Part shown: positions 1-48,805 of the stretch, piece after piece
Layout: each line of letters begins with the position of its first letter
Numbering within the stretch: the first letter of the stretch is position 1
IMG/VR virus record: IMGVR_UViG_3300037245_000450
Span: 1-48,805 of that record
Reading direction: 5' to 3' (one strand)
DNA length: 48,805 nucleotides
DNA from: a virus
Made by a program: the position numbers and the translations under genes
Notes under the pieces: generated by a model
What the model was told of the DNA's origin: nothing
The model's database searches: none
The model's input: the letters and a program-made list of their open reading frames with translations, nothing else

Positions 1-127
1 GCACCCAAGAGAGTGATGAGACTGGTGTGGCCTGCGGAGATTGCAAAATGGAAGCACACTACCTGGCTGCCCTGGACCATCCTGCATGGCCCAGGGAAAG
101 AGAACAGGCTATGGGGCAAACACAAAG
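1..127. repeat. Terminal direct repeat, left copy (127 bp)
   Basis: Bases 1-127 are identical to 48679-48805. The SNF2-type helicase gene reads without interruption through the junction if the two copies are merged, so the contig is closed. A length of exactly 127 is typical of the k-mer overlap left by an assembler on a circular or circularly permuted molecule; a genuine short terminal redundancy is the alternative. Confidence 0.9.
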
Positions 128-1224
128 CCATCTACCTCATCAACTATGAAGGCCTGCTGTGGTTGAAGGAGGAGCTGCGCAACATCCCACCAGAAGAGTG
201 GCCCTTTGACATGGTGGTGTGGGACGAGCTGTCCAAGATGAAATCATGCAGTGCTCAACGGTTCAAGGCCTGGAAGACACTCATCACCAAGTTCAGGAGA
301 AGGGTGGGCCTAACAGGTTCCCCTGCACCCAACTCCCTGAGAGACTTGTGGGGGCAGACCTTTGTGATTGATGGTGGCTTCAGGTTTGGCACCTCCTATG
401 AGAGGTTCACCAATCGCTGGTTCGAGAGGGAAGAGGAGCACAACCGATTTAAATACAAGCCAAGGCCCAAGACCAAAAAGCAGTTCCACAAAAGGCTCAA
501 GGACATGGCACTGAGAATGGGCAGGGATGAGTACCTGGACCTGATCCCTGCTGTGCACAATGACATCATCATTGAACTGCCACCCAAAGCTCAGAGGCAA
601 TATGATGAGCTAGAGGCCAAAATGTTTGTGGAGCTTGATGAGGGGGAGGTGGAGGCATTCTCTGCAGCCACTCTCATGGGCAAGTGCCTGCAGTTCAGTG
701 GGGGTGGGGTTTACACAGACACCAAGACCAGGGAATGGGAGCTGGTGCACCATGCCAAGATGGAAGCCCTGGAAGACATCATTGAAGAGGCCAATGGGTC
801 ACCAGTCATCGTGGCATATGGCTACAAGCATGAGGCTGAGCGCATCCTCAAGAAGTATCCCCAGGCAGTGCACATGAAGAGTGGGCTGAGCATGAAGAGG
901 GAGCTGGCCATCCAGGAAGCCTGGGACGCGGGTGACATCCCCATCCTGGTGCTCCACCCAGCCAGTGCTGCCCATGGTCTCAACCTCCAGTATGGGGGGC
1001 ACATCCTGGTGTGGTTCACCCTCACCTTCTCCTTTGAGCAGTATGACCAGCTCAGGCAGAGGATTGACAGGAGTGGCCAGGTGGAAACTCCCATCTTCCA
1101 CAGGCTCCTGGTCAGTGGGACTGTGGACTTTGTTGCCATGACAGCTGTGGCAGGCAAGGAGCACACACAAAGTGAGCTACTGCAGGCTGTTAGGTCCTAC
1201 CAGGTGCACAAGCTGGCAGCCTAA
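1..1224 (+). CDS. SNF2-family (SF2) DNA helicase, C-terminal part of a gene cut by the contig ends
   Basis: This is the larger part of a DEAD/SNF2-type ATPase whose start is at 48493. Joined across the junction the protein is about 469 aa. The reading frame is open from base 1, so the GTG/ATG at 13-18 is internal. Visible here are a Walker B-like VVWDELSKMKS, motif III GLTGSPAPNS, and a motif VI-like YDQLRQRIDRSGQ near the C-terminus; the Walker A lysine (GLGKT) lies in the other part. Phage SNF2 helicases of this type sit in replication modules next to VRR-NUC nuclease, polymerase and DUF2800/DUF2815 genes, exactly as here, and probably remodel replication or recombination intermediates. The family call is firm; the precise substrate is unknown. 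Confidence 0.92.
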   Translation, partial: APKRVMRLVWPAEIAKWKHTTWLPWTILHGPGKENRLWGKHKAIYLINYEGLLWLKEELRNIPPEEWPFDMVVWDELSKMKSCSAQRFKAWKTLITKFRRRVGLTGSPAPNSLRDLWGQTFVIDGGFRFGTSYERFTNRWFEREEEHNRFKYKPRPKTKKQFHKRLKDMALRMGRDEYLDLIPAVHNDIIIELPPKAQRQYDELEAKMFVELDEGEVEAFSAATLMGKCLQFSGGGVYTDTKTREWELVHHAKMEALEDIIEEANGSPVIVAYGYKHEAERILKKYPQAVHMKSGLSMKRELAIQEAWDAGDIPILVLHPASAAHGLNLQYGGHILVWFTLTFSFEQYDQLRQRIDRSGQVETPIFHRLLVSGTVDFVAMTAVAGKEHTQSELLQAVRSYQVHKLAA

Positions 1225-1228
1225 AAGA

Positions 1229-1290
1229 GGGGCATGACCAACTTTCTTCTCAAGGGGTGTTTACTCCTTGCCGCAAAGGAGTATATTGAC
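1229..1290 (+). promoter_or_regulatory. Early promoter-operator module, copy 1
   Basis: A sigma70-like promoter TTTACT (1260-1265), 16-bp spacer, TATATT (1282-1287) drives the 1339-4387 genes. The near-palindrome ACTCCTTGCCGCAAAGGAGT (1263-1282; 7-bp arms around a central CG) fills the spacer and touches both hexamers, as a repressor operator would. A second conserved block starting GGGGCATGACC lies 31 bp upstream of the -35, just after the helicase stop. The same arrangement occurs at 41559-41619 and 42753-42811 on the other strand. Promoter and operator function are inferred from position, hexamers and conservation. Confidence 0.75.
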
Positions 1291-14249: not shown

Positions 14250-15722
14250 CTATCGCTCTACAGTGCCGTTGATCTCAGCACTGTGAATTGCCCCAGCTAG
14301 GAGGGCAGTGAATGAAATGTTAGGTGCTTCTCGGTTGGCCTTTGCAGCAGCACTCATCAGTGCAACAGGCTGGACCAGGGTGGCATACCCCAAAGGCAGG
14401 TAGGTCCCATCAATGGTGGTGCCAGGAGCAATGAGCCCATTGACCACACCCTCATTGAGAGCCTTGATGACCTGTTGCTCAATGGAAGCACCACCTGCAT
14501 CAGTGAGGGGCACCTTGGTGGTCCTGGTGTAGAGGTAGCCAAAGACATTGTTCTCAATGGCATTCTGCAACCAGTCCACACCATGGACCTCATCAAAGTA
14601 AGTGCCATCACCCATGGTGCCTTCAGCAAACATGGGGTTGCCCCCCACATCGATGTAAGCATTCCCATTCTTGTTGTCCAAGTTGAGCTTCTCAGTGGAG
14701 GTGAGCTTCTCAGAGGCCACAGTGGGCAGCTGCTTGAACTTCAGGGTGAGGGTGGAGTTGGGTGCAGAGAAGTTCACCACAAAGGCTCTGCTCAGTGCAC
14801 TCACATCAGGGTACTCATCCACAACAGACGAATAGACTGCCATGGATCGGCGTAGGCTGTTGTTTTGGATGTAGTAGGCAATGTCAGTGGTGCCAGTGGT
14901 CAGTGCAGTGGCATCATTGCTGCAGGTGGCAAAGACCTTGGAGTTGGCCTCAACCCAGTCAGCAGTGTCTTCCACCACAGTGTTGTCCCTAATCTCTCTG
15001 GTGAATACCAACCCATACCACTCATTGGATGTGTTGCGCGCATCATCCAAGGCAGCCTCAATCAGCTCAGCTGTGGACCCTTGCTGCAGCTCCACACCAG
15101 AGTTGGAAGAGGTCATGGCCAGGTGCTCACTGATGTCAGTGCCACTTCCACCATCAACAACCTCCAGCAGAGACATGGTGGAACTGGCACCAGTGGTGCC
15201 ACTGGTGATGATGAACTTGCCAACAGTGGCCTCCCACACACAGGTGGCTGCAACATATCCACCAGTAGCAATGGCCTGCAGCTCTGCCTCAATGGTGGCA
15301 GCCACAGCATCCAGGTCAGCATCACCACTGAAGTCCATGGCGAGGATGTCTTCCTCATCTCCATCAATGCTGAGGGTGAACTCACCATCGGTGATAGCTT
15401 GCCAGGTGGCAATCACAGTGAGAGGCCCAACCCCACTCAGGATCTCACCAGGGGTACTGGTGTTGAACCACCCACCAATGGCAAGGAGCTGGGGGTGAGG
15501 GTTCTGAGAGAAGTAAACCAGGGCTGCTGCATAGGCCTCAGTCGATACAGCGAAGTCATCCCCAACAGCAGACAGGCTGGCATAGAATCGCAACCGCTCT
15601 GCCTTGGTGATCTCGGTGGGGTTGGTTGTGATGAGCAGTGCAGTACCAAACCCCAGCCTGGAGGGGAACTGGGGTGCAACACTGATCTGCACATTGACGA
15701 TGGAACTAACTGGCAGGGTCAT
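14250..15722 (-). CDS. Contractile tail sheath protein (DUF3383-like)
   Basis: A 490-aa protein with an N-terminal SSIVNVQISVAPQFPSRLGFGTALLIT, a variable beta-rich middle with Thr/Ser repeats, and the conserved C-terminal half (FATCSNDATAL ... YIQNNSLRRSMAVYSS ... KFKQLPTVASEKLTSTEKLNLDNKNGNAY separated by turns). Sheath proteins of this family surround the tube and contract to drive it through the envelope, so this is a myovirus. It overlaps the preceding gene by 4 bp. Confidence 0.88.
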   Translation of the reverse strand: MTLPVSSIVNVQISVAPQFPSRLGFGTALLITTNPTEITKAERLRFYASLSAVGDDFAVSTEAYAAALVYFSQNPHPQLLAIGGWFNTSTPGEILSGVGPLTVIATWQAITDGEFTLSIDGDEEDILAMDFSGDADLDAVAATIEAELQAIATGGYVAATCVWEATVGKFIITSGTTGASSTMSLLEVVDGGSGTDISEHLAMTSSNSGVELQQGSTAELIEAALDDARNTSNEWYGLVFTREIRDNTVVEDTADWVEANSKVFATCSNDATALTTGTTDIAYYIQNNSLRRSMAVYSSVVDEYPDVSALSRAFVVNFSAPNSTLTLKFKQLPTVASEKLTSTEKLNLDNKNGNAYIDVGGNPMFAEGTMGDGTYFDEVHGVDWLQNAIENNVFGYLYTRTTKVPLTDAGGASIEQQVIKALNEGVVNGLIAPGTTIDGTYLPLGYATLVQPVALMSAAAKANREAPNISFTALLAGAIHSAEINGTVER

Positions 15723-17500: not shown

Positions 17501-17992
17501 CTACTCAAGCTCACCCAGTGAACCATCACTGGAGGTGTTGGTGGATGCAGCAGGCTTGGGTGCCTTCTTGCGGGTTGCCTTCTTCTTGGCAGCTTTCTTG
17601 GCAGCCTTCTTCTTGCCACGCAACCGAGGGGGCAACTTGGCCTGAGCAGGCTGGGGCTGAGCGTTCTCGGCAACCACTTCACCCTCCACCTCGTGGGGCT
17701 CGCTCACAGTGAGGATGGGGGGCTTGGCATTGAGCATGGTGTCAATGCCAATCTGCACTGCATCATTTCGGCCACTGTCATCATTGAGGATGAAATCCCA
17801 CAGCTCAGCAGGAACATCTTGGGGCACACCTGGCACCAGCTTCAATCGGGTCATGCCCTTGGCCAGGTATCGGGGGTCAGGGAGGTCATTGCCTCTGGCA
17901 TCTTTGGTCAGGGTGATGGGCTCGGTGCGAACCACAATACTCTCCAGGCGCTCACTTTCGTTGGTCAGTGTCACTACAGTTGTCTTGGTCAT
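17501..17992 (-). CDS. Capsid-region protein with Lys/Ala-rich tail
   Basis: A 163-aa protein between major capsid and DUF4054 genes. The first 100 residues look globular (VTLTNESERLESIVVRTEPITLTKDARGND ... VPAELWDFILNDD). The C-terminus is a lysine/alanine/arginine tract (KKKAAKKAAKKKATRKKAPK, about 126-145) that could bind DNA or RNA. The fold is not recognised. It could be a minor capsid or packaging-associated protein. CpG is noticeably more frequent here than in most of the genome. Confidence 0.75.
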   Translation of the reverse strand: MTKTTVVTLTNESERLESIVVRTEPITLTKDARGNDLPDPRYLAKGMTRLKLVPGVPQDVPAELWDFILNDDSGRNDAVQIGIDTMLNAKPPILTVSEPHEVEGEVVAENAQPQPAQAKLPPRLRGKKKAAKKAAKKKATRKKAPKPAASTNTSSDGSLGELE

Positions 17993-18036
17993 GTCCCTTG
18001 CCTCTCATGTTGGTCAGTTGGTTTGGTTGGTACATA

Positions 18037-18065
18037 GGCACCCCCACAAACTCTGTGAGGGTGCC
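18037..18065 (-). terminator. Hairpin downstream of the major capsid gene
   Basis: GGCACCC and GGGTGCC, with inner CACA/TGTG pairs, form a stem of about 11 bp 20 bp after the capsid stop. No T-run follows. It may be a leaky terminator or a stabiliser that raises capsid mRNA over downstream genes. Confidence 0.5.
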
Positions 18066-18085
18066 CAAGATGCTCACACTGGCGA

Positions 18086-19054
18086 CTAGATGCCGTAAGT
18101 GAAAGCCACACTCAGTGGGTAGTACACGATGGTGCCAGCAATGCGCGAGCGACCAGGCACCACAAGCTCCAGCCCTCGCTCCTGGGGTGGGAAGAACTCC
18201 AACTCCTGAGGGATGTGCAACTCCAACTTCATGGGGTCCTTCTTGTAGATGATGAACATGTCGGCACCATCACCAGCGCCCACACCACCATTGTTGAGCC
18301 GGTTGACGGGCACCACATTGGCAGTGCTCCCCAAGAAGGGGCTGTTGGCCACAAGCCAAGACAGGATGCTCATGTCACTCTGGTCACTCCGGGGAGTGGT
18401 GGCAATGTAGTTGTACTGAGCCACAGGAAGAAGAAGGGTGTCAGCCTGCTCCTTCATCAGAGTGTCGGCATGCATGGTGGTGAAGGTGTTGTTGATGTCA
18501 GCCAGGATCTCTGCAGGAGTTGCAGCGGTCCACACACTGCCAGCAGTGGTGTTGGTGTTGGGGATGTTGGGGTTGGACAGGAGGCCCACAAGACCACTGG
18601 CCGCATCACCACCCCATGCAATCTCCTCTTCCGTTTCAGCCGTCGCACGCCGCGCCGCATCACTGCGCTTGGTGTCAATCGGAGTGCCAGAGAATCGAGC
18701 ATGCTCAATCTCATCTCGGTTCCAGCCATAGCTGATACCCACAGAGCGAATCTTCTGGTTGACTTCCTTGCCCGAGATGTCGGCCCGAGGAAGGTCCTGA
18801 GCATAGGCAGTGATGATCTTTGCCATACCCAGCTTGTCAAACACCTGGTAAGTGATCGACGTTGCACCAGGCCCAGCCTCACTGTTCACAGGGAACAGGT
18901 CACGGGCAACCAGGTCTGCATATACAACATCGATGCTACGTGCCAACACATGCTCCAGCTGGCGAGCAAAGAACACTGCACCATCGGCATCCACAACAGC
19001 AAACTGTGTGGCACCAATGGCATCCTGAATCATTTGGCGGTTTAGAGCTTTCAT
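18086..19054 (-). CDS. Major capsid protein (DUF2184-like, HK97 fold family)
   Basis: A 322-aa protein starting MKALNRQMIQDAIGATQFAVVD, with LARSIDVVYADLVARDLFPVN, the family core ITYQVFDKLGMAKII, YAQDLPRADI, and near the end LELHIPQELEFFPPQERGLELVVPGRSRIAG. This is the DUF2184 major capsid type, which goes with DUF2213, DUF2190 and DUF1073 proteins as here. Codon use differs from the rest of the genome: CGN arginine and TCG codons are common and CpG is several times denser than in replication genes. Confidence 0.9.
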   Translation of the reverse strand: MKALNRQMIQDAIGATQFAVVDADGAVFFARQLEHVLARSIDVVYADLVARDLFPVNSEAGPGATSITYQVFDKLGMAKIITAYAQDLPRADISGKEVNQKIRSVGISYGWNRDEIEHARFSGTPIDTKRSDAARRATAETEEEIAWGGDAASGLVGLLSNPNIPNTNTTAGSVWTAATPAEILADINNTFTTMHADTLMKEQADTLLLPVAQYNYIATTPRSDQSDMSILSWLVANSPFLGSTANVVPVNRLNNGGVGAGDGADMFIIYKKDPMKLELHIPQELEFFPPQERGLELVVPGRSRIAGTIVYYPLSVAFTYGI

Positions 19055-19087
19055 GTTTTCTTACCTTTCCACCCCTAAGGGCTGCAG

Positions 19088-19573
19088 CTATCCAGCTGCT
19101 CCAAGGGTGAGACCATCCAGGCGAACCAAGCCCACAGCTCCTGCTGCAGTAGTGGCCTCCAGGGTGGCACCAGTGAGGGCATGCTCACCACTGGCAGGGG
19201 CACCAGCATCAATCACACCAGTGGTGTCATGGACATTGATGGGGTCACCAGGGCTGCCACCAGTGGGGATGGTGCAGTAGATGTAACCCTCGCGCATCAC
19301 AGCCACAGTCTCCTCATCAGCGTAGCCAGTGAGGTCACCAGTGAAGATGACACCTTCACGCCCAAGGTCGCGCACTGCGATCCCCAAGAACTTTGCTGCA
19401 GTGGAGGCACCTACCTCACACTGCTTGTCGGCATCAGTGCCACGCTCCACACCGTAGCCAAAGGCAACTGCGCCCTCAGCTGCGCGGGAGACAGTCTCAT
19501 GGGGGTGGACATCAGCAATTTGGCCAGGTAGGGCATTGCTGATGTTCTGCTCATAGCTTGTCTGCACAGACAT
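19088..19573 (-). CDS. Capsid decoration protein (DUF2190-like)
   Basis: A 161-aa protein directly upstream of the major capsid gene. The pattern fits DUF2190: start SYEQNISNALPGQIAD, VAFGYGVERGTDADKQCEVGAS..KFLGIAV, then VAVMREGYIYCTI and a hydrophobic Ala/Gly-rich end. These proteins decorate or cement the capsid surface. Moderately CpG-rich, like the capsid gene. Confidence 0.85.
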   Translation of the reverse strand: MSVQTSYEQNISNALPGQIADVHPHETVSRAAEGAVAFGYGVERGTDADKQCEVGASTAAKFLGIAVRDLGREGVIFTGDLTGYADEETVAVMREGYIYCTIPTGGSPGDPINVHDTTGVIDAGAPASGEHALTGATLEATTAAGAVGLVRLDGLTLGAAG

Positions 19574-19646
19574 CTTTTGGCTCTCCTTCTTAATGTTGGG
19601 CGCATTGCCCAGGTGGTGTTGGCCTACCTGACCAACTTATAAAAAT

Positions 19647-20192
19647 CTAGTTGGCTGCGCGCTTGGTCCGGTTCGCCCGAGCCTCAGCCATCTCATCCTT
19701 GTCACCATCACCTGCATCAGCAAAGGCCTTGCCGATGGCAGTGTTCACACCACTCTTGGAGGCATCAGTGATGGGGGTGCTGGGGTCACTGGCCAAGCTG
19801 TCGAACCGAGCGCGGATATAATCCACACTGAGGTTGGTGAGGTCCAGCTCAGGGCACTTGTCTGCCACAATCTCGCGCCGGATGGTCTCACAGTCTTTGC
19901 TCTCCACCTTGTAGGTGGGCACCAGCTTGGTAGCGGCATCAACCACTGCAGTGCGCTTGGCAACCAGCTCATCCAGCTGCTCAGGAGTGGGTGCCTTGGC
20001 CTCTGCATCAGCAACCTTCTGGTTGAGGGCAGCCACTTCATCAGTGTGAGCTGCAGCAGCAGTCAGGGCATCTTCCTTGTGCCCCTGCACTTCCAGTTCC
20101 ATGTCACCCAGCTTGGCAGTGAGCTTGCCGACAGCTTGCACAACCTGCTCACTGGCTTCAAAGGTCACCTTGTCAATGATCAACTCTTTCAT
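19647..20192 (-). CDS. Nested scaffolding protein (in-frame internal start)
   Basis: Inside the protease gene, in the same frame, an ATG at 20192 is preceded by GAGGAGAAAGAC, a strong ribosome binding site. The 181-aa product (MKELIIDKVTFEASEQVVQ...) contains the coiled-coil region only. Nested protease/scaffold genes are known (lambda C/Nu3). The internal start is inferred from the ribosome binding site and the domain boundary. Confidence 0.6.
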   Translation of the reverse strand: MKELIIDKVTFEASEQVVQAVGKLTAKLGDMELEVQGHKEDALTAAAAHTDEVAALNQKVADAEAKAPTPEQLDELVAKRTAVVDAATKLVPTYKVESKDCETIRREIVADKCPELDLTNLSVDYIRARFDSLASDPSTPITDASKSGVNTAIGKAFADAGDGDKDEMAEARANRTKRAAN

Positions 20193-20750
20193 GTCTTTCT
20201 CCTCTGTTTGGTTTTCCCCATCAGCCAGTCTGCATGAGGGGCCACATCTTGCTTTTTCAACCAAGGCAATGTGATTGCCGAGGATGTTCCTCTGGACTGC
20301 ATCAAAGTGCTCATCACCATGCATGCCAGGAGCGAAGTCAATATCAGCCATGTAGCCATTGGACACCTGGACAGTGCCAGCTTCAATGGCAGCAATGGCA
20401 GCTGCATCAGTCACCAGGAGGTCCACCACCAGGTGCTCACCCTCGCGCCTCACTGGGGCTTGGCTGAATCCCACAGTGACTTCCTTGGCATTGTCAGCAT
20501 GGACTCTCATGCCAGCTGGGTGACCCAGGGTCACAGGCACATTGGCGAAGCTCTGCATGGAGGCATCAGCAAAGGTGTCCCCTGCAGGTCGAAACACCTT
20601 GATGCGTTTGAAGGGGTCAGCATCATCCACACCCAACTCATGGGCGTAGTAGTCCTGGATGCCAGTGCGCGCAATGGTGGCAGGCACCAGCAGGAAACCC
20701 TCTGCAGTGCGCTTCCTATCTGTGAGTGCATGTCTGTCTTGCAGGAACAT
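19647..20750 (-). CDS. Prohead maturation protease fused to scaffold (DUF2213-like)
   Basis: About 367 aa from the ATG at 20750 (AGGGGG upstream); a further ATG at 20765 lacks a ribosome binding site. The N-terminal domain has DUF2213 features: a mid-domain VTLGHPAG (possible catalytic His), VSNGYMADID (possible Ser) and NHIALVEKARCGPSC. From about residue 187 the sequence becomes helical and charged, as in scaffolds. It probably cleaves scaffold and capsid N-termini during head maturation. An internal start at 20192 would give the scaffold alone. Confidence 0.82.
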   Translation of the reverse strand: MFLQDRHALTDRKRTAEGFLLVPATIARTGIQDYYAHELGVDDADPFKRIKVFRPAGDTFADASMQSFANVPVTLGHPAGMRVHADNAKEVTVGFSQAPVRREGEHLVVDLLVTDAAAIAAIEAGTVQVSNGYMADIDFAPGMHGDEHFDAVQRNILGNHIALVEKARCGPSCRLADGENQTEEKDMKELIIDKVTFEASEQVVQAVGKLTAKLGDMELEVQGHKEDALTAAAAHTDEVAALNQKVADAEAKAPTPEQLDELVAKRTAVVDAATKLVPTYKVESKDCETIRREIVADKCPELDLTNLSVDYIRARFDSLASDPSTPITDASKSGVNTAIGKAFADAGDGDKDEMAEARANRTKRAAN

Positions 20751-20804
20751 TCCTAACCCCCTCATGTAAAAAGCTAAATGCTGGACATCAAATTGTCCAC
20801 CCTG

Positions 20805-21716: not shown

Positions 21717-23195
21717 CTATGCCTCCTCACCCGGTTCTGGACCCTTGGGTTGGGTTTTGGTCTCTGGTGGTTGAGGTTGGGACATAGCAGGTGCAACAGG
21801 TTCATCAGGGTTGGGTGTAGTCCTCAAGGCTTCAGCTTCTTGCGCCAGCCTTTCATTCTCAGCCCTCAAGGCATCCTGCTCAGCAGCCTCAAGCTCATCA
21901 AGGGTCTCCTGGGTCAGGTTGGAGTAGGTGCCACGCTCAATCAGATCCAGGGCAACCACCTCCTCAGTCACAACACCCATGTCAATGTAAGTCTTGTCAC
22001 GCTCAGCCCTGGTCTTTTCGGTAGTGGCTTTCTCCTCCTCTGTCTGCTGCCACAGGGGGTTGAACTCATATGTCAGGTCCTCTGGCACCTCTCCCCAGAG
22101 GTGCTGTGCCAGGATGTTATCCAGGGCAGTCTGAGGGGGTCTCAGCTGAGTCTCTTGCTTGGAGCTGATCATGTCATAATAGTTTCTGATGTCTGACTCA
22201 CCAGTGGCGTTGAGACCTCCTGGGCTGGAGCCCATCAGCCTGGTCACAGGGATGTCAGAGGCTGAGGCCACAGCATTCAGGAAACGATCATACAGCTGGG
22301 GGATGCCAGCAAAAGGCTGGTGGTGTGTCTCATAGGTTTCAGTTGCATCCATCAGCAGCATGTTGTTGTAGGACTTCATCATCTTGGCCAGCTGGAATCT
22401 CTTACGCAGCTGCTCCTCTCCAGCATGGGAGGAAGCCAAGGAGAGGAGGTTGGGCACCTTGATGACATCCACACTCTGCTCCAGGAGCAGGGTGGAGGCT
22501 GAAGCACTCACAGTGCCAGCATCAATCAGTGCCTCATACAACCTCTCCAGGATGGAGTCACCCCAGTATTGGTTGCGCTTCATCTCGCGCAGAGGGAGCT
22601 TGATGCCATCGAATCTCACAATCCTGGTCCAGTGCACCTGGGCATGGGTGGACTCAACCAGGGAGTAGATGTCAGGCAGACCAAAGTTGGGGGCAGTGAT
22701 GTCCCAGGTGTTGATCTTCATGGCAGGGGCATAGTACCTGTCCAGGACAGTGAGGTGAGACAGTGAACCCTTCTTGATGTTGTTGTGGTCCAGGGGCTCC
22801 CTGGGGTCCATGCCATCATTGATGCCCAGATAGATCAGAGCCCCACCATATAGCCTGGCCCACTTCAGTGACTCATGGACCTTGGGGGCCATGAGGAAAT
22901 CTCGCTCAGCCTTCTCAAACTCCTCCAACCGCTTGGGGTCCATTTCACTGTTGAGTGTTCTGCCCTGTCGGGTCATGTCGTCAGGCACAATGTCAACCAG
23001 CTTCCCAGAGAGCCAGTCAAAACGATACATGCTTTCCAACTCTTCTCTGCTGCGCTTATTGCGAGAGGTGAAGCTGGTGAATGATCTTTTGTCAGTGTTG
23101 GTGCCCATCTCTGCCACCAAGTTGATCAGGGCATCATTGACAATCACCTCACCCTGGCCTTCAGCACTAGCTGGCTTCCCATCAATATCAGACAT
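21717..23195 (-). CDS. Portal protein (DUF1073-like)
   Basis: A 492-aa protein with a DUF1073 portal core: YRFDWLSGKLVDIVPDDMTRQGR, RLYGGALIYLGI, then VTRLMGSSPGGLNATGESDIRNYYDMI, the conserved GxSPxGLNATGExD motif, and a charged Gln/Glu/Pro-rich C-terminus. It forms the dodecameric DNA channel at one capsid vertex. It is preceded by a 59-aa zinc-ribbon gene whose stop lies 3 bp from this start. Confidence 0.92.
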   Translation of the reverse strand: MSDIDGKPASAEGQGEVIVNDALINLVAEMGTNTDKRSFTSFTSRNKRSREELESMYRFDWLSGKLVDIVPDDMTRQGRTLNSEMDPKRLEEFEKAERDFLMAPKVHESLKWARLYGGALIYLGINDGMDPREPLDHNNIKKGSLSHLTVLDRYYAPAMKINTWDITAPNFGLPDIYSLVESTHAQVHWTRIVRFDGIKLPLREMKRNQYWGDSILERLYEALIDAGTVSASASTLLLEQSVDVIKVPNLLSLASSHAGEEQLRKRFQLAKMMKSYNNMLLMDATETYETHHQPFAGIPQLYDRFLNAVASASDIPVTRLMGSSPGGLNATGESDIRNYYDMISSKQETQLRPPQTALDNILAQHLWGEVPEDLTYEFNPLWQQTEEEKATTEKTRAERDKTYIDMGVVTEEVVALDLIERGTYSNLTQETLDELEAAEQDALRAENERLAQEAEALRTTPNPDEPVAPAMSQPQPPETKTQPKGPEPGEEA

Positions 23196-24904: not shown

Positions 24905-25959
24905 GGTAGTGCACCCCCACTAAGGGGTTCCGTGAATACCCCTTTGGCATAAGCTGCAAGCCTGATAGACACATCACTGTCCCCTGTTATCCCACACGCC
25001 ATAATCTGGCGTATGGACAGTTCAGTGAGTAGTGTGACATCTGGGAAGTAGGCAAATTCAACGATGTTACCATGAAAGAAATTGGAGGCACCTGAAGGAT
25101 TCCCACTAAAGGTAAGCCAGTTTTGGGCTCCAGCGTTCCACACAGATGCATTCTTGGTGCCACCTGAGGCGGTCTCATCCTCTCCATTTATATAGATCTT
25201 TGTGCCAGCGGCTGCTGTTGATGTGATTCCAACATGCACATAGTCATCCAAGGTTTCACACCCAGAAGGGGTGAAGGCAGCGGCAGCGGAAGTGGTTATG
25301 TCACTGTTTTGGTTGAGCCAGAATCGCCCTGTGGCGTCAAGATTGATGTAATCATCAGGCCCACCTGATGAAGGTCTCTGTGCTAGCAGCCATTCGTCCC
25401 CAGCAGGGTCCACCTCCTGACATACCCAGAATGAAAAGCCATACCCAGCAGCATCCCCCATATTGTAAAGTGCTGTGGCTGTCTTGAGTTGCACATTTCC
25501 TGTGAAGCGCCATCCATGGATTGTTACATCATTAGGGATACGCGATGCAGGAAGCACTATGGTTGAAGTCACATCCCCTGTTTCAGTGCCCCAGTCCCAC
25601 TGGGCAAAGTCATCAATGGCTCCAATCTCATCAGCATAGTCCAGGGCTTCAGGATCATTCTTGTATGCCCACAGAGATGATGTGATGGAGGTGCCATCTG
25701 TGGAGGTGTACTCAGTCCCTGGCCAGCGACGGGTAACTTCATCACCACCAATCCAGTAAAATCTATAATCTGTCCACAGGAGTCCAGTACACATGTCTTG
25801 GTTGCAAGGTGCCAATGCGTAGGTTGTATTGATCAGGAATGACTCCCCACGCTCACCATCTTTTGCAACACTGTCATCACCACAGTCACCAATGCATGTG
25901 GCCAAAGCTGGGGAAGCAAACAACAGCACCAGTGCCAGGCTGAAAACATATTTTCTCAT
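24886..25959 (-). CDS. Exported LamG/concanavalin-like lectin domain protein
   Basis: A 357-aa protein with a clear signal peptide (MRKYVFSLALVLLFASPALA). Two early Cys-containing segments precede a jellyroll region (about 140-310) with YGFSFWVCQEV, DDYVHVGITSTAAAGTKIYINGEDE and ASNFFHGNIVEFAYFPD, the usual LamG/ConA pattern (VxIYxNGxxx, G.I.EFAxF). Such domains bind carbohydrates. It overlaps the SGNH hydrolase gene by 19 bp; a hydrolase with a binding partner is a reasonable reading. Confidence 0.8.
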   Translation of the reverse strand: MRKYVFSLALVLLFASPALATCIGDCGDDSVAKDGERGESFLINTTYALAPCNQDMCTGLLWTDYRFYWIGGDEVTRRWPGTEYTSTDGTSITSSLWAYKNDPEALDYADEIGAIDDFAQWDWGTETGDVTSTIVLPASRIPNDVTIHGWRFTGNVQLKTATALYNMGDAAGYGFSFWVCQEVDPAGDEWLLAQRPSSGGPDDYINLDATGRFWLNQNSDITTSAAAAFTPSGCETLDDYVHVGITSTAAAGTKIYINGEDETASGGTKNASVWNAGAQNWLTFSGNPSGASNFFHGNIVEFAYFPDVTLLTELSIRQIMACGITGDSDVSIRLAAYAKGVFTEPLSGGALPCGDTK

Positions 25960-27584: not shown

Positions 27585-29087
27585 TCAGATGCCCTCATAT
27601 ATATTGCCCTTCACCAGCAGATCCTCAATGGCCATCACTGTGGTGTCCACCTGATCATCATGGGCATGAGTCATCAAGGGGGTGAAGCTGGCGAACTCCT
27701 GCAGGTACTCAGGCACCCAGCTTTCAGAAGTCACAGTGGGGATGTGCACCCTGCCTGAAGCAATGAATGGGATGACACCCATGGCCCTCATCACCTTGTC
27801 CTTCTGTACCTGGACAGCTTCCACAGGTATCAGTGACTCCTTTGAAAGTGTCTGGATCAGTGAGGAGCCACTTGACTTGTCCTCAATCTTGCATGCTGTC
27901 ACTGGGATGTAGGAACCATGCCGCTGCCTGTTGTGTGCATGCTTCTGCCAGAAGGAGGTGATGACCTCCAACAGCTCAGGGGCTTCAAACTTCCCTCTGA
28001 TCTGGTCCAGGAGCAAGATGCCCATGGAAGGTGAGAAGCCCCACACCTGAGCAACAGTGAAGTCATGCTGTTCCTCTTTCTTCTGTGCTGTGTCGATGTA
28101 CATGCGTTTCACAGTGATGTCGGCTGGGGGCTCCCCATAGAATCTCCACCACCTCTCCTTGAACATACCACCACCAAGGGGTGAGGGTCTCTGGTCATAC
28201 TGTGAGGCGTAGGTGTAGGGGTCAGCCTCAGCCATCTGCTCCAGGTCAGCCACAGTGTGCTTGTCTTCCCACAAGGCACCTGGAGCAAGGCCATGCTCAA
28301 TGGGTATGCCATAGCTCCAGCTGGTGGGGTACTTCTCACCCCCCTTGATCAGTGCAGGGATGCTCAGGTGGTGCCACTTCTCTCTGGTGCCGCCCTTCAG
28401 CAGGAAGCCAACAGGGTCATCCTCATGGAGCCGCTGCATGATGAGGATGATGGGCACCCCTTCATGGGCAAGCCTGCTCTTGATGGTGTTGTTGATTCGG
28501 CTGTTGGTTTTACCCCTGAGGCTGGCAGAATAGGCATCATCAGGTTTCAGTGGGTCATCAATTACCACAGCACCAGTGAAGCCTGGCTCCATCCTTCCAG
28601 CGCGAAAACCAGTTACCTGGCCAGCAGCTGCAGTGGCATACACTCCCCCACCTTCCTTGGTGCTCCACTGTTTCTTGGCACCAATGTCAGCCCTGATTCT
28701 CCTGTCCCAGTGCCTCAGGTATTCAGGGGACTCCACCACATCCTTGGTGGCTTGGGAGTTGGTGCCTGCCAGGTTGTCTGAATAACTGAGGTGGATGAAC
28801 CTGGCTCTGGGGTTCTTGGCCAATCCCCTGGACATGAAGCCAATGACCAGCATCTCAGTCTTGGTGTAGCCAGGAGGGATGGTGATGATTAGCCGGTTGA
28901 TCTCACCACTGAACACCTTGTCAAGTGTGTCCTCAATCACCACATGGTGTCTGTTGACAATGAACTGCCCACCATCTCTGTGTCTGAAGAAGTACCTATT
29001 GAAATGAAGCCCCTTGGCCTCACAGGCCTCCCTGTTCATCCTTACAAAGCCAGGGGTGGCCTCATACTCCAGGTCAATAGCGTCCAT
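27585..29087 (-). CDS. terL: Terminase large subunit
   Basis: 500 aa from the ATG at 29087, which overlaps the end of the small subunit by 14 bp and has GGAAG upstream. The ATPase domain shows Walker A PPGYTKT (residues 71-77) and Walker B AVVIDDP (D177, D178). The nuclease domain begins near MYIDTAQKKEEQHDFTVAQVWG. The enzyme threads DNA into the head using ATP and cuts concatemers. The open frame extends upstream through terS, which I do not take as coding. Confidence 0.93.
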   Translation of the reverse strand: MDAIDLEYEATPGFVRMNREACEAKGLHFNRYFFRHRDGGQFIVNRHHVVIEDTLDKVFSGEINRLIITIPPGYTKTEMLVIGFMSRGLAKNPRARFIHLSYSDNLAGTNSQATKDVVESPEYLRHWDRRIRADIGAKKQWSTKEGGGVYATAAAGQVTGFRAGRMEPGFTGAVVIDDPLKPDDAYSASLRGKTNSRINNTIKSRLAHEGVPIILIMQRLHEDDPVGFLLKGGTREKWHHLSIPALIKGGEKYPTSWSYGIPIEHGLAPGALWEDKHTVADLEQMAEADPYTYASQYDQRPSPLGGGMFKERWWRFYGEPPADITVKRMYIDTAQKKEEQHDFTVAQVWGFSPSMGILLLDQIRGKFEAPELLEVITSFWQKHAHNRQRHGSYIPVTACKIEDKSSGSSLIQTLSKESLIPVEAVQVQKDKVMRAMGVIPFIASGRVHIPTVTSESWVPEYLQEFASFTPLMTHAHDDQVDTTVMAIEDLLVKGNIYEGI

Positions 29088-29505
29088 CAAAATACTTCCA
29101 GAAGCCCTTGGCCTCACCCTTGGTGAGTGGGGTTGCAGCTCCCCCCTCCTGGTCAGTGGTGGTGACTTCAATCTGCTTGAGCTTTGGCTGCATGTATTCC
29201 ATCAGCTGGGCCATGACCCTGGTGGACAGTTCGAGAGGGACTTCCTTCTGCCTGTGGTGCTCTCTGATGACATCCAGCAGCAGGTCCCATTGCCCTGGTG
29301 AGGGTGGCTTCCTGCCATTCTTTTTCTGGATCTCTTGCGACCACTCCCACACTTCAGATGCATGCCTGGGGTCTCTGCCCATGGCAATGTCCATCATAAA
29401 CTCAACAGGCTCAAGGAAGTCACCAGTGCCAAGGAGTGACTGCACAGCTGCAGCCACCCCCTCAGCCAACTCAGGGGTCATCTGGATCTTCTTTGCTCTT
29501 GCCAT
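29074..29505 (-). CDS. terS: Probable terminase small subunit
   Basis: A 143-aa helical, charged protein immediately upstream of and overlapping terL, the standard place of terS. N-terminal KKIQMTPELAEGVAAAVQSLL and central EVWEWSQEIQKKNGRKPP could form the DNA-binding part; the C-terminus KGFWKYFDGRY is short. Identity comes from position and size; no family motif recognised. Confidence 0.72.
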   Translation of the reverse strand: MARAKKIQMTPELAEGVAAAVQSLLGTGDFLEPVEFMMDIAMGRDPRHASEVWEWSQEIQKKNGRKPPSPGQWDLLLDVIREHHRQKEVPLELSTRVMAQLMEYMQPKLKQIEVTTTDQEGGAATPLTKGEAKGFWKYFDGRY

Positions 29506-32967: not shown

Positions 32968-35451
32968 CTACCCCACCAACTCCACTGCTTCCTTGAGCCT
33001 CAGCAGCATCCTCTTGGCCTGCTCTCTTCCACACTTCAAGTAGCGTGGATCAGCACCAGGTCTCAGCCAGATGGTCTCCTGGCCACCCTTATGGGACACA
33101 GCAAACAACCTACCTCTGGAGCCTCCAGCCCACTTCCGAAAGCCTAGCTGCAGCAGCTCCAAAGCCATCCTGGAATTATCATCCTGGCCACCCCCAAAAT
33201 CATCATCATCCTGGCCAGCGATATTCAAAAGGGTGGACAGTGGGAACAGGGGAAATTGGTTGAGCAGACTCTCTGGATCATTGGTGGCATCACGCAACTG
33301 AAGGAACCAGTGGGCATGAGAGTCTTCCTCCATCAGGGTCTTCAGTGCATTGTCCCCAGTGAGGAGGGGGTTGAGTCGCCAGTCAGTGAGGTCCCGTTGC
33401 ATGAGTGCCCACCTGATGGGGTGGATGCTCTCCAAGACCCAATCCTTGAAACTGACATACCACCCAAACCCTTTGTGGCCCCTGGCTCGCTCACCAGGTG
33501 CAGCACAGAAGATGGGGACAAAGCGACGGTTGGAGATGTCACCTGCAATGCAGTCAGGTTTGTTGGCACAGGCAATGAAGTTGGCGAACATCTCAATGGA
33601 GAACTGACCCCCATACTTCACATTGAGGAAAATCTCTGGGTCAGTGCATGCCGTTTTCAGCAGGTTCAGTGCCCCAGCTGCTGTGCCCTTATCCAGCTCA
33701 AACTCAGGGAAGCACAGCACCTGGCCCTCACCCAACCACCCTGTGTGATCCAGTGACAGGTTCTTGGCTTGCAGGCTGGTGTAGTTGCGAGGGCCAATGA
33801 CCTGCTTGACCACATCGTCCACCCACACATTCTTCCCACAGCCTGGTGCACCAAAGAGGATGGGCATGTGCAGCCACCTCTCTGTTGGCTCTTGCAAGCA
33901 CAGGGCAAGCATGTCCAGGAGGAGCTTGGCTGCATCATCATCCCCAGTGAGGAACTTGATGTAGTCATACAACCTCGTGACATCACCATGGGCCTCCTTC
34001 ACCAAGGGTGGGTCAAACTGATTGACACACATGGCACCCTTGCTCTCAAAGAGAAGCTCTGCCCCAGGCTTGAACCCAAAGCGGTCTGCCTTGGCGATGG
34101 CATCACAGGCCACTGCAGCTCTGACACTGAAACGCACTGGCTCACCATCCAGGCCAAAGAAGTCCAGTGAGCCCCAGGCTGTCTCGAATGACTGCACACT
34201 GCTGGCACTCTTGATGGAGGAGAGGAACACCTTGCCCTTGTCCTCTGCCACGTAGATGACTCCCAGGTTGTCCATCACTGGCTTCCAGGCTGCCTTCTGT
34301 TGGCCCATGAGTGAGATGTCCCCACCCTCAATCCTCATGCCTGTCTTGGCCACCTCCACCTCATGCTTGGCAGCCAACTTCACTCTGCGCTCAATGGACC
34401 TCACACCCCTACCCTTCACCTCGGAGTCAGAGACCATCTCACATAACTGTGTCACTTCATTCTTGTCCAGCATCCTGAACTTGGAGCCCCTGGCCACCAT
34501 CATCACGAAGGCCTCAAGCCCTGGCTCACTGGTCAGGTTGAATCCACCCTCCCTCACCAGTCTCACAATCTCTGGGTAAGGCAGGCAGCCTGACTTGGCT
34601 TCGTGCTGGGTGAAGGCTTTGGCAACTGTCTCCTCCACCTCCTTTGCACTCATGGGGTCGTCTGCCTTGGAGTTGCGCAGCATGCACATCTTGATGGCAC
34701 CAGGGAGGTCATGCTTGTTGACCAGGCTGCAGGCCATCCTGAAGATGTCACTGTTTCTGCTGCCTGCCTCCAAAGGGGTGGAGATGTCTAAGGCTTCCTG
34801 GGTGCCTGCTGTAGCCCTTCTTGTGGGTTGCTCCATACCAGGAGGGGCAAGGGTGCCCTCGCGCAGCTGGTAGATCCACTCGGGTGCCTCTGCCATGGGC
34901 TGGGTGGGTTTGCCACCCTTCCAGCGATAGGTCTTGCCTGATTCATGGTTGGAGGGGGGTAGGACCACATAGCCTCCCCCTGTTCGGATGTCCAAGCCCT
35001 GTCTCTTCCCCAGGCCAGAGCAGTTCTGGATGGGCCTGGGTGCCCTCAGGAAGAGATGCCTGCCTCCCCCACCTGTCAGCCCCTCCAGAGTGTCTGGGAC
35101 CTCGTAGCCAAGCAGGTCCAGCTCCTCAAGATACTCTGTGCCCCCATGCCTGGGGTCCACATCCAAGACCAGGATGTTGGGAGGGAGAGCCACACCGATG
35201 TTGGCTGTGGGCCACTTGCCCCACCAGGTGTCAATCTGGTCAATGTCCTTGGTGGCAGCATTGTGACCTTGGCCAACCCTGGGGTGCTTCCCAGGTGAGC
35301 TGCAGTCAGCCTCCCTACAGCTGCAGGGCAGGTCACTGTATTCCTTGCCTACAGCCTCATAGATGGGGAAGACGCGCCAGCCATTCCTGGCATATAGCTT
35401 GGCAGCTCTGTGGGCTTTACTCTCAGCAGCTGCTCTTGTATGGTTCTTCAT
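32968..35451 (-). CDS. Bifunctional primase-polymerase / SF3 helicase
   Basis: An 827-aa protein with an N-terminal PrimPol domain: CSCREADCSSPGKHPRVG (about 43-60), WPTANIGVA, the catalytic VLDVDPRHGG (D97, D99), GGGGRHLF (H132) and LDIRTGGGYVVLPPS. A linker and helical region follow. The C-terminal SF3/D5-type helicase has Walker A GAPGCGKN (K540) and VLCFPEFE as likely Walker B, then FIACANKPDCIAGDISNRRFVPI. It should prime and unwind DNA at the origin. It ends 19 bp from the iteron array. With the family A polymerase it makes up the replisome core. Confidence 0.92.
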   Translation of the reverse strand: MKNHTRAAAESKAHRAAKLYARNGWRVFPIYEAVGKEYSDLPCSCREADCSSPGKHPRVGQGHNAATKDIDQIDTWWGKWPTANIGVALPPNILVLDVDPRHGGTEYLEELDLLGYEVPDTLEGLTGGGGRHLFLRAPRPIQNCSGLGKRQGLDIRTGGGYVVLPPSNHESGKTYRWKGGKPTQPMAEAPEWIYQLREGTLAPPGMEQPTRRATAGTQEALDISTPLEAGSRNSDIFRMACSLVNKHDLPGAIKMCMLRNSKADDPMSAKEVEETVAKAFTQHEAKSGCLPYPEIVRLVREGGFNLTSEPGLEAFVMMVARGSKFRMLDKNEVTQLCEMVSDSEVKGRGVRSIERRVKLAAKHEVEVAKTGMRIEGGDISLMGQQKAAWKPVMDNLGVIYVAEDKGKVFLSSIKSASSVQSFETAWGSLDFFGLDGEPVRFSVRAAVACDAIAKADRFGFKPGAELLFESKGAMCVNQFDPPLVKEAHGDVTRLYDYIKFLTGDDDAAKLLLDMLALCLQEPTERWLHMPILFGAPGCGKNVWVDDVVKQVIGPRNYTSLQAKNLSLDHTGWLGEGQVLCFPEFELDKGTAAGALNLLKTACTDPEIFLNVKYGGQFSIEMFANFIACANKPDCIAGDISNRRFVPIFCAAPGERARGHKGFGWYVSFKDWVLESIHPIRWALMQRDLTDWRLNPLLTGDNALKTLMEEDSHAHWFLQLRDATNDPESLLNQFPLFPLSTLLNIAGQDDDDFGGGQDDNSRMALELLQLGFRKWAGGSRGRLFAVSHKGGQETIWLRPGADPRYLKCGREQAKRMLLRLKEAVELVG

Positions 35452-42715: not shown

Positions 42716-42752
42716 TTTTTGTGCTCCTTGGCTGGGGTGGGCTGTTGAGGTC

Positions 42753-42811
42753 AATATACTCCTTTGCGGCAAGGAGTAAAGGGAACTGGAGAAAATAGTT
42801 GGTCATGCCCC
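42753..42811 (-). promoter_or_regulatory. Early promoter-operator module, copy 3
   Basis: Minus strand: TTTACT (42780-42775), 16-bp spacer, TATATT (42758-42753), near-palindrome at 42758-42777, upstream GGGGCATGACC block starting at 42811. It shares the downstream leader with copy 2 almost base for base. It lies in the divergent region facing the 42917 gene, whose own promoter I cannot identify between 42812 and 42916. Confidence 0.78.
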
Positions 42812-45731: not shown

Positions 45732-45927
45732 CAGGGCAAGGCTCACCAAGCTCACTGGTGATGTGTGGTGTGATTATGAGGGTGGTTTGCACAGAGACAC
45801 TCCAGACCCTTACAACTATGGGCCTGATGGATACACAGACCCCATCACATACAAGCTGTTGGACCACTGCCCAGGACCTCACAGGCATGTGTATGTCTAT
45901 GCCAAACCCAGTGAAGGGCAGATGTGA
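45724..45927 (+). CDS. Hypothetical protein, 67 aa
   Basis: Start at 45724, overlapping the preceding stop by 8 bp. Tyr/Asp/His-rich (DVWCDYEGGLHRDTPDPYNYGPDG, with a turn). Not recognised. Ends in the overlap with the polymerase start. Acidic and polar; possibly a polymerase accessory by position only. Confidence 0.6.
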   Translation: MSDRARLTKLTGDVWCDYEGGLHRDTPDPYNYGPDGYTDPITYKLLDHCPGPHRHVYVYAKPSEGQM

Positions 45928-47936
45928 ACACTCAACAGATTCTCCACCTGGACTATGAGACCTTCAACAATCTCAGTGTGAAAGATGTGGGTGCCTTCAG
46001 GTATGCCCAGGACCCCTCTGCTGAAGTGATCCTGGTGGGCTGGGCCTTGGATGATGAGCCAGTTGAAGTGTGGGAGCCAAGGCTTGGCCCACCACCCAGG
46101 AAGCTGGTCAAGGCATACAACAACAAGAAGGTGAGGGTGTCAGCCCACAATGCTGGCTTTGAGAAGTGCATCACTGAGGGTGTGCTCATCCCTCAGTTGG
46201 ATGTCATCCCCTTTGGTGGGCCATGTGTCATCACAGCACCCACCCTGGATAGGTATGTGTGCACAGCTGCCTTGGCTGCCTCCATGTGTCTGCCCAGGAA
46301 GCTGTCCCACCTGGCAGGTGCCATTGGCTTGGAAGAGAAGAAGGACACCAGAGGCCTAGCCCTCATCCGAAAGTTCTGCATGCCACAGAAGGATGGCACC
46401 CGAGTCATGCCCCAGGATGACCCTGAAGCCTGGGCAGAGTTCATTGAATACTGCAGGCAGGATGTGGTGGTGGAGCGCCAGGTGCACCACAAGCTCAAAC
46501 GGTTTGCCCTCAGTGAGTATGAGGAGCTGGTGTGGAGACTAGACCATGAGATGAATGCCAGGGGCATCCCCATGGACATGGACATTGTGCACCACATGAG
46601 TGACCTGGTGAGTGTGTGGTCAGAGGAGCTGCAGGGGCAGGCCATCCTCCTCACTGATGGTCTCAAGACCACACAGAATGACAAGCTGAGAGTGTGGCTG
46701 GCAGACAATGGCTGCCCACTGCCCAACCTGCAGAGACAGACCATTGAGCACACACTGAGAGACAAGGTGCTGACCCCTGTTGCCAAGAGGGTGCTGGAAA
46801 TCAGGCTCAGCCTGGCCAGGTCCTCTGTCAGCAAGCTCAAAGCAGTCATCAGGTGTGTTGGTGAGGATGGAAGGGTGAGAGGCACCCTACTCTACTGTGG
46901 AGCTGAGAGGACATGGAGGTGGAGTGGCAAGCTGACCCAGCCTCACAACTACCCAAGACCAGCCAAGGGTCTGGAGCTTGAGGACATTGCCCATGCCATT
47001 GAGATGATCCAGGCTGAGTGTGGTGTGTATGAGTTAGCAGAGATGGGTGACCCCATGGCTGTCATGTCTTCATGCCTCAGAGGCACCATCTGTGCTCCCC
47101 CAGGCAGGGAGCTGTTGGTGGCTGACTACTCTGCCATTGAGGCCAGGGTGCTGTGTTGGTTGGCTGGCCAGGATGACATTGTTGCCTTGTTCCACCAGGG
47201 GCTGGATGTTTACATCACCATGGCTGCTGAAATCTATGGGATAGCCAAGGCAGCTGTCACCAAGGACCAGAGATGGATTGGCAAGCAGACTGTCCTGGGC
47301 TGTGGGTACCAGATGGGGGTGGCCACCTTCATTGCCAACCTGTTCAAAATGGATGTCATCATCACTGGTGAGCTGGCATCCAAGTGTGTCAAAGGGTACA
47401 GGAAAAAGTTTAGCAAGGTGAAGGAGCTGTGGGGCACCCTGGGTGGTGCTGCCATCAGTGTGGTCCAGGGTGGTGGTGCTGTCTCAGTGTGTGATGGCAA
47501 AGTCAGGTTCAGCATGGGCTCCAACTTTTTATATGTGAGGCTCCCATCAGGCAGGAAGCTCTCATATTACAGACCCAAGCTGGAGATGGTGCAGCCTGGC
47601 TACAGTGATGACCCTGAGGACAAGGTGCTTGCTGTGACCTACCTGGGCATTGGGAAGAGTGGCAGGCTGATCAGGGAGAGCACCTATGGTGGCAAATGGG
47701 CTGAGAACATTGTGCAGGCTATCTCCAGGGACTTGATGGCCAATGGCATGCTCACTGCTGACCTGCTTGGCTATCAGCTCATAACCACCATCCATGATGA
47801 GTTGATTGCAGAGGCCAAGAAGGGTGCAGAGAGCCTGGCCAAATTTATTGAAGCTATATGCCTGAAGCCCAGGTGGGGGGAAAGTATCCCCCTGACTGCT
47901 GAGGGCTACGTGGAAGAGAGATGGAGGAAAGACTGA
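45924..47936 (+). CDS. DNA polymerase, family A, with 3'-5' exonuclease
   Basis: A 670-aa replicative polymerase. Start GTG at 45924 overlapping the previous stop. Exonuclease: LHLDYETF (D10, E12), SAHNAGFE and EYCRQDV. Polymerase: motif A LLVADYSAIEAR (D401), motif B region KAAVTKDQRWIGKQT...GCGYQMG, motif C TTIHDELI (H624-D625-E626). Like other phage Pol A enzymes it lacks the 5' nuclease. The stretch 46502-47908 of this gene contains no CpG that I can find, and arginine is coded by AGG/AGA almost throughout. Confidence 0.95.
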   Translation: MNTQQILHLDYETFNNLSVKDVGAFRYAQDPSAEVILVGWALDDEPVEVWEPRLGPPPRKLVKAYNNKKVRVSAHNAGFEKCITEGVLIPQLDVIPFGGPCVITAPTLDRYVCTAALAASMCLPRKLSHLAGAIGLEEKKDTRGLALIRKFCMPQKDGTRVMPQDDPEAWAEFIEYCRQDVVVERQVHHKLKRFALSEYEELVWRLDHEMNARGIPMDMDIVHHMSDLVSVWSEELQGQAILLTDGLKTTQNDKLRVWLADNGCPLPNLQRQTIEHTLRDKVLTPVAKRVLEIRLSLARSSVSKLKAVIRCVGEDGRVRGTLLYCGAERTWRWSGKLTQPHNYPRPAKGLELEDIAHAIEMIQAECGVYELAEMGDPMAVMSSCLRGTICAPPGRELLVADYSAIEARVLCWLAGQDDIVALFHQGLDVYITMAAEIYGIAKAAVTKDQRWIGKQTVLGCGYQMGVATFIANLFKMDVIITGELASKCVKGYRKKFSKVKELWGTLGGAAISVVQGGGAVSVCDGKVRFSMGSNFLYVRLPSGRKLSYYRPKLEMVQPGYSDDPEDKVLAVTYLGIGKSGRLIRESTYGGKWAENIVQAISRDLMANGMLTADLLGYQLITTIHDELIAEAKKGAESLAKFIEAICLKPRWGESIPLTAEGYVEERWRKD

Positions 47937-48241
47937 TGGAGTTGCGATATGAAGTTGTGACCAGCAAGAGAGACCCAAAGAACTACAAGCTGATGGGGTT
48001 CCTGGGTGGCTACAAGGTCACCAAGAAGGACCTGGTGATGGTTGCCCCTGTGTTGGGGAACTGGATGCGCTGCAATAACTTCCTGAAGGGTTCAGGCAGC
48101 CTGGAGGTGTGTGCCAAACTCCTCATCATTGAATCCAACAACAGGGCCAGGCTCCACATGCTGGTGAGGCTCAAGCGAAAGTTTGATGTGTACCGAAAAG
48201 GGGCAGAAGCCCGTGAGGTGGCCAGGTTCTCCCTTGCTTGA
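47936..48241 (+). CDS. Hypothetical basic protein, 101 aa
   Basis: ATG at 47936 in a TGATG overlap with the polymerase stop, GGAGG upstream. Basic (YKVTKKDLVMVAPVLGNW ... ARLHMLVRLKRKFDVYRKG), helical, no recognised family. Likely nucleic-acid-binding partner in the replication operon. The VRR-NUC gene overlaps its end. Confidence 0.68.
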   Translation: MELRYEVVTSKRDPKNYKLMGFLGGYKVTKKDLVMVAPVLGNWMRCNNFLKGSGSLEVCAKLLIIESNNRARLHMLVRLKRKFDVYRKGAEAREVARFSLA

Positions 48242-48530
48242 GGAGAAGATTGAGGGGGACTTCGCTGCCCATGCTGAGTCAGTGGGCTGTCTCACCTACA
48301 AGCTCCTTCCTGCAGGAAGAAGAGGCAAGCCTGACAGGCTGGTGATCTGTCCAGGCTTCATGTTCTTTATTGAGTTCAAGAAGCCTGATGAAGTGCCAGA
48401 GGACCATCAGGCAAGAGAGCACAAGAGACTCAGAGACCTGGGGCATGTGGTGTGGGTCATCGATCAACCTGGAGAGGCAGAAGAAAAGCTAGATGCAATC
48501 CTTGAAGCCACCTCAGACCTACGAGCCTAG
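48213..48530 (+). CDS. VRR-NUC-type nuclease
   Basis: About 105 aa from a GTG at 48213 (AAAAGGGG upstream; ATG 48186 is the alternative). PD-(D/E)XK core of the VRR-NUC type: E14, AGRRGKPDRLVI (D41), FFIEFKKPD (E54, K56), DHQAREHKRLRDLGHVVWVID. Stand-alone VRR-NUC proteins cut branched DNA and are common beside SNF2 helicases in phages. Its last 38 bp overlap the helicase start. Confidence 0.85.
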   Translation: MRWPGSPLLEEKIEGDFAAHAESVGCLTYKLLPAGRRGKPDRLVICPGFMFFIEFKKPDEVPEDHQAREHKRLRDLGHVVWVIDQPGEAEEKLDAILEATSDLRA

Positions 48531-48805
48531 AGACTATGGGGCAGTTGCCACCCAGTGGTTGGTGGACAAGCCAGAGGCAGCTCTGTGGCTTGACTGTGGC
48601 CTGGGCAAGACAGTCATCACACTCACTGCCATCTGCCAGCTGTTTGATGAGGTGAGGACCCGAGGGGTGCTCATAGTCGCACCCAAGAGAGTGATGAGAC
48701 TGGTGTGGCCTGCGGAGATTGCAAAATGGAAGCACACTACCTGGCTGCCCTGGACCATCCTGCATGGCCCAGGGAAAGAGAACAGGCTATGGGGCAAACA
48801 CAAAG
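48493..48805 (+). CDS. SNF2-family DNA helicase, N-terminal part (continues at base 1)
   Basis: ATG at 48493 (GAAGAAAAG upstream) opens the frame that joins in phase with the gene at 1-1224. MQSLKPPQTYEPRDYG is followed by DCGLGKTVITLT, whose GLGKT is the Walker A loop, then GVLIVAPKRVMRLVW (motif Ia). The last 127 bases duplicate 1-127. The full protein is about 469 aa. Confidence 0.9.
   Translation, partial: MQSLKPPQTYEPRDYGAVATQWLVDKPEAALWLDCGLGKTVITLTAICQLFDEVRTRGVLIVAPKRVMRLVWPAEIAKWKHTTWLPWTILHGPGKENRLWGKHK
48679..48805. repeat. Terminal direct repeat, right copy (127 bp)
   Basis: Identical to bases 1-127 and inside the helicase gene. Removing one copy gives a circular map of about 48,678 bp. 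Confidence 0.9.

Follow-up and report, generated by a model that had tools for sequence, protein, structure and literature searches.

Deep CpG depletion in a GC-rich contractile-tailed phage and its possible origin in CpG-specific C-to-T decay

Introduction

Loss of CpG to the depth described here has precedents in vertebrate genomes and in vertebrate viruses; AT-rich bacteria show it in milder form. In vertebrates the decay of 5-methylcytosine removes CpG with a gain of TG and CA, in all contexts and on both strands, and the usual effect of CpG methylation in animals is about tenfold. Among bacterial enzymes, M.SssI and M.MpeI originate from AT-rich mollicutes. Both are CG-specific methyltransferases (PMC10899764). 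The phage reported here shares with vertebrate decay the loss of CpG and the gain of TG and CA, in all contexts and on both strands, but differs from it and from the M.SssI and M.MpeI systems in being a GC-rich phage with stronger loss and no enzyme of its own, known from sequence alone. It can be said to behave like vertebrate CpG decay, an analogy that does not establish membership of that class.

A second likeness is to ZAP-type CpG suppression, in which the virus likewise loses CpG in every reading position. That suppression concerns vertebrate RNA viruses, whereas here a dsDNA phage is affected, and we know of no bacterial counterpart of ZAP-type sensing. Known restriction avoidance targets specific words of 4-8 bp, and phages usually share the composition signature of their host. 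Our search of the literature on CpG-depleted phages found no report on point. A sequence-only reading of the phage had proposed three causes for its composition, namely deamination of methylated CpG in the host, avoidance of CpG-containing restriction sites, or a host with the same bias.

Materials and methods

The sequence analysed, hereafter the window, is IMG/VR record IMGVR_UViG_3300037245_000450, positions 1-48,805, at its full length. Relatives were fetched from IMG/VR, 80 by sheath and 80 by terminase. The synonymous-site test took the two-fold codons with C or T in third position and compared the share of C between those followed by G and those followed by another base. In the four-fold-site test, the effect of a following G was taken from CpG-normal relatives and C was then removed before G. 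Hosts were screened in 84,980 species with the ABC-ATPase motif QRVAIARAL in a CpG-free spelling in which arginine is AGG and ATT stands before G. About 7% of QRVAIARAL motifs are expected to match this marker, as estimated from phage codon use, and therefore about one match is expected per genome rich in ABC transporters; the screen is indirect, and a host that has few of these genes, or that uses CGN within them, would escape it.

Results and discussion

The window carries an exact 127-bp direct terminal repeat (1..127 on the plus strand, identical to 48679..48805 on the same strand), and the record is therefore probably a complete genome with a unit of 48,678 bp. Family matches identify a member of the Caudoviricetes with a contractile tail, with sheath, baseplate J, portal, terminase and head genes found in order. 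The structural set, which also includes a tape measure and a baseplate hub, lies on the minus strand for the genes located here: tail sheath (14250..15722, phrog_205, 2e-120), used as query for finding relatives; a capsid block of four genes (17501..20765, CpG 0.31-0.49); portal protein (21717..23195, phrog_146, 7e-140); and large terminase (27585..29171, PF17289, 1.3e-11). The capsid block consists of an unassigned protein with a lysine-rich tail (17501-17992), the major head protein (18086..19054, phrog_264, 6.5e-91), a virion protein (19088-19573) and the head maturation protease (19647-20765). The replication set comprises an SNF2-type helicase (13..1224, plus strand, PF00176, 2.1e-10), a DUF2800/PD-(D/E)XK nuclease, an Enc34-type single-strand binding protein, a topoisomerase-like protein, a primase-polymerase (Prim-Pol; 32968..35451, minus strand, PF09250, 1.3e-42) whose C-terminal part contains a DUF5906 stretch, and a family A DNA polymerase (45924..47936, plus strand), in which CpG falls to 0.03.

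Some further features were seen. A permuted papain-like amidase (YaeF/YiiX, PF05708) lies at 23377-23976, and one is also present in the relative MW202455 described below. A promoter-like element, TTTACTCCTTGCCGCAAAGGAGTATATTGAC, occurs in three copies (1229-1290, 41556-41608 and 42750-42811) that are 87-89% alike and stand upstream of three early genes; an inverted repeat sits between its -35-like and -10-like boxes, and the CpG of the GCCGC centre is retained in all three copies. An AT-richer intergenic stretch adjoining Prim-Pol (32594-32931), with CCTGCCTAATTAGGCAGACCCCCTGCCTAA repeats and an inverted repeat, is a possible replication origin. Two unrelated proteins contain lysine-rich AAKKKAxRKKA stretches, at 17561-17599 and 43088-43126; the DNA of these stretches is 92% alike and runs in opposite orientation. 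A tRNA-Leu call at 28314-28391 was treated as false, lying antisense within the terminase gene without Rfam support.

Over the whole window the symmetrised odds ratios are 0.138 for CpG, 0.36 for TpA, 1.67 for CA/TG and 0.96 for GpC, at a GC content of 54.7%. Put differently, about 86% of the CpGs expected by chance are missing from this 48.7-kb phage of 55% G+C, and some 500 per genome are still present. The loss affects both strands with a gain of TpG and CpA, is independent of wider context, and is seen in every kilobase, at all codon positions and in intergenic DNA (CpG 0.10); nearly all genes are depleted to a similar degree. Arginine is encoded genome-wide by 479 AGG or AGA codons against 207 CGN codons, and NCG codons are scarce (GCG 29 of 1348 for Ala, CCG 10 of 706 for Pro, ACG 11 of 914 for Thr). 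The composition described in the sequence-only reading, GC-rich and almost without CpG, abundant in TpG and CpA, with GpC not reduced, arginine coded by AGG/AGA and NCG rare, is thus borne out by measurement, as are its CpG counts, and the effect proves stronger than that reading put it. Its description of the depletion as genome-wide stands for every kilobase (11 CpG in the first), but the depletion is uneven. Observed over expected CpG per 1-kb window is 0.01-0.29 everywhere except at 18-20 kb (0.38-0.47), the capsid block (~17.5-20.8 kb) being milder. A GDSL-lipase-like gene and a protein with a signal peptide (24209..25959, minus strand) also show milder CpG (0.30-0.35), with lower GC3 and higher TpA (0.61-0.68); these genes are likely later arrivals whose conversion is still under way.

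The synonymous-site test isolates the effect most sharply. Of the two-fold codons followed by A, C or T (n=1978), 87.4% end in C; of those followed by G (n=1122), 8.5% do, giving a C-before-G odds ratio of 0.015. The same test in 259 other loci, comprising relatives, unrelated phages and bacterial genome pieces, gave a median of 0.74; the next most extreme independent locus reached 0.114, and only fragments of the same phage come near 0.015. On the other strand, NCG accounts for 1.6-1.8% of NCN codons, against 30-38% in GC-matched relatives. From these fractions, the C/T bias at CpG is about 75-165-fold that at other sites. Outside CpG, the phage favours the codons that a high-GC organism would (GGC, CTG/CTC, and C at 87% of two-fold sites). 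A milder C-before-G switch was observed in two phage contigs, L187 (GC 49%, CpG 0.59) and L258 (GC 51%, CpG 0.45), with odds ratios of 0.11 and 0.20.

Record set 3300043172 alone yields near-identical copies of the phage (above 99.9% identity), all of them fragments; syntenic relatives of equal GC have CpG of 0.93-1.03. Myoviridae sp. ctfzr933 (MW202455, Manatee Spring; GC 55.2%) shares the structural gene order from terminase to baseplate, with 17 proteins 25-47% identical, but has CpG 0.93, other replication genes, and nucleotide-metabolism genes. Similarly, IMG/VR 3300009095_000021 (our loci L040/L178) matches in length (48 kb) and GC (57%), with terminase 56% and portal 46% identical, but its CpG is 1.01-1.03 and it uses C before G in 58% of cases. 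Terminase relatives 56-57% identical, at GC 55-57%, have CpG of 0.95-1.13. Copies of this phage aside, CpG is at least 0.31 in all fetched sheath and terminase relatives, and at least 0.59 where GC exceeds 45%. In the sheath tree the window forms a lone long branch, of which the AT-rich L019 and L028 (CpG 0.31-0.46) may be neighbours. The sheath gene of L028, an AT-rich and CpG-poor relative, contains three in-frame stops (TAA, TGA, TAA; L028 1955-3409), either a decaying copy or sequencing errors. Inheritance of the CpG loss from the phage group is ruled out, relatives of the same GC being close to 1. Scans of viral contigs with polymerase and SNF2 motifs returned this phage and no second one with the same signature; the nearest partial cases are L187, L258 and the AT-rich relatives L028 and L065. 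The refuting conditions set in the sequence-only reading do not overturn its observation: the CpG odds ratio lies far from 1, and phages related to this one at equal GC lack the depletion. The loss far exceeds that of any relative or bacterial genome found and, within what was searched, its extreme form is confined to one phage.

The capsid block differs from the rest of the genome in its arginine codons, with 43 CGN and 9 AGR against 145 and 415 elsewhere (P 6e-16); all 16 arginines of the major head protein are CGN. NCG codons make up 4.6% in the block and 1.4% elsewhere. The block has not escaped conversion, because the C|G codon junctions of the head protein (3 C, 25 T) are converted like the rest (81 and 939). 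Recent import as the cause of its higher CpG is ruled out, since the nearest relatives of the head protein are also those of the sheath and its junctions are equally converted. The highest CGN share among genes of low-GC relatives (0.91) likewise belongs to the head protein and its neighbour. Translational selection may have kept CGN in these most expressed genes; if so, host translation favours CGN, and AGR elsewhere would be a product of CpG pressure rather than the mark of an AGR-adapted host.

The explanation we regard as best, with about even confidence, is CpG-specific C-to-T decay, most likely following 5-methylation of CpG cytosines by a high-GC host. It fits best because the loss affects both strands and all contexts, TG and CA are gained, and T is in excess in three of four codon boxes. 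On this account both strands of the phage DNA would long have been exposed to C-to-T change specific to CpG, which would turn CpG into TpG and CpA almost wherever protein coding permits. A host methyltransferase would put 5-methylcytosine on CpG, the phage being without an enzyme of its own, and the methylated base would then be deaminated or misread by the polymerase, as in vertebrate genomes. Arginine codons of low-expression genes would have moved to AGR because CGN is mutationally unsafe, the most expressed capsid genes retaining CGN through translational selection. What we infer from the pattern is that methylation is the agent, that it comes from the host, and that the arginine codons shifted in this way. 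The absence of a methyltransferase from the phage, as first read, holds for C5-cytosine methylases (no PF00145 match, while 10 of 14 control genomes match) and for everything nameable by other family searches, which returned neither methyltransferase nor deaminase; several early proteins have no recognised family. The 75-165-fold bias is large for methylation decay alone, and selection may contribute as well.

Selection against CpG as such is the strongest rival, and on balance we think it unlikely. Here a host defence that cuts or senses CpG, by two-base restriction or a CpG-sensing nuclease, would make the phage shed its CpGs, retaining only those for which the demands of protein or translation are worth the cost. 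The four-fold boxes bear on this most directly. The share of T exceeds that of proportional redistribution in Val (0.286 against 0.152), Gly (0.617 against 0.459) and NCN (0.601 against 0.510), an excess unexpected at selection equilibrium; in the Leu box redistribution is proportional, which is the outcome that selection against CpG alone predicts. Pure C-to-T transfer, with codon preference ignored, fits no better than the proportional model in any box; it is clearly worse in Leu and NCN and within bootstrap range in Val and Gly. Observed values fall between the two models, near enough to proportional to speak for selection as well. Of 125 positions with arginine as the consensus of relatives, 8 carry Q, H, C or W in the window; in relatives the share is 1.5%, the counts being small and the relatives not independent; among non-arginine residues at these positions the figures are 8 of 31 and 12%. 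This excess has the direction that CGN decay would be expected to give. Taken together, the four-fold and arginine data somewhat favour a combination of CpG-to-TpG/CpA mutation and codon selection. A CpG-directed defence would also accommodate a depletion beyond that of usual methylation decay, an arginine shift to AGR that requires transversions, and relatives in other hosts without depletion; in turn, the CpGs still left in each genome could be found by a CpG-cutting enzyme, and to our knowledge no CpG-sensing defence exists in prokaryotes.

In the window GAGCTC occurs 0 times against 20.0 expected, TCATGA 2 against 16.7 and AAGCTT 3 against 15.0, while MW202455 has 10 against 15.4, 15 against 17.1 and 19 against 17.0. 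Such avoidance hints at restriction systems of the host or hosts, which speaks for selection by a host defence. It is word-specific, however, as restriction-site avoidance in phages is, and the CpG loss is not: all 16 NCGN contexts are depleted, to 0.05-0.27 of expectation, the least affected being CGCG and GCGC, and CGCG stands at 3.6 times its Markov expectation given the CpG depletion. CpG-containing four-base restriction palindromes are thereby ruled out as the cause. Ordinary avoidance of restriction sites is not supported as the cause of the CpG loss, because every CpG context is depleted and true word avoidance looks different; of the proposed site avoidance only a defence aimed at the dinucleotide itself survives.

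The phage could instead mirror an unsampled host that is GC-rich and CpG-poor for reasons unrelated to methylation, such as a replication or repair bias, which we consider improbable. The usual sharing of host signature and the similar effect on nearly all genes speak for it. Against it, the QRVAIARAL screen yielded 87 loci, none with CpG below 0.40 and none below 0.55 at GC above 50%; a similar marker run on viral contigs recovered this phage (L272) as its only depleted contig; and the strict CGN of the head protein suggests a host translation that favours CGN, unlike that of an AGR-adapted host. A prophage search with the sheath alignment found no match to a host, and the closest annotated proteins come mostly from phages of Gram-negative bacteria. 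The screen also weighs against methylation decay, which requires a host with the same bias: such a host should be CpG-poor, and no GC-rich one appeared among the species screened. The proposal of a same-bias host therefore found no counterpart in this indirect screen and may concern an unsampled one.

A sequencing or assembly artefact is extremely improbable: some chemistries, cytosine conversion for example, do yield C-to-T at CpG, but non-CpG cytosines are untouched at two-fold sites, TpG and CpA are raised equally, the long reading frames that have family matches are unbroken, and two further contigs agree with the window at more than 99.9% identity.

Conclusions

Our analysis describes a GC-rich phage at CpG 0.14 amid relatives near 1, which implies a CpG-directed process in some bacterium, one that is not visible in the genome collections searched. 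CpG-specific C-to-T decay, probably through methylation, would account best for the pattern. We would tentatively, and with somewhat less than even confidence, propose that the host either belongs to an unsampled GC-rich bacterial lineage with vertebrate-like, near-total CpG methylation or carries a defence against bare CpG, which would be a first in prokaryotes. The signature itself is a sharp compositional fingerprint with which to seek that host. The phage also offers a natural case in which to ask whether an entire prokaryotic virus can be reshaped by DNA methylation or by CpG-directed immunity; if a methylating lineage or a CpG-recognising defence does exist, this genome would be a record of the pressure it exerts.
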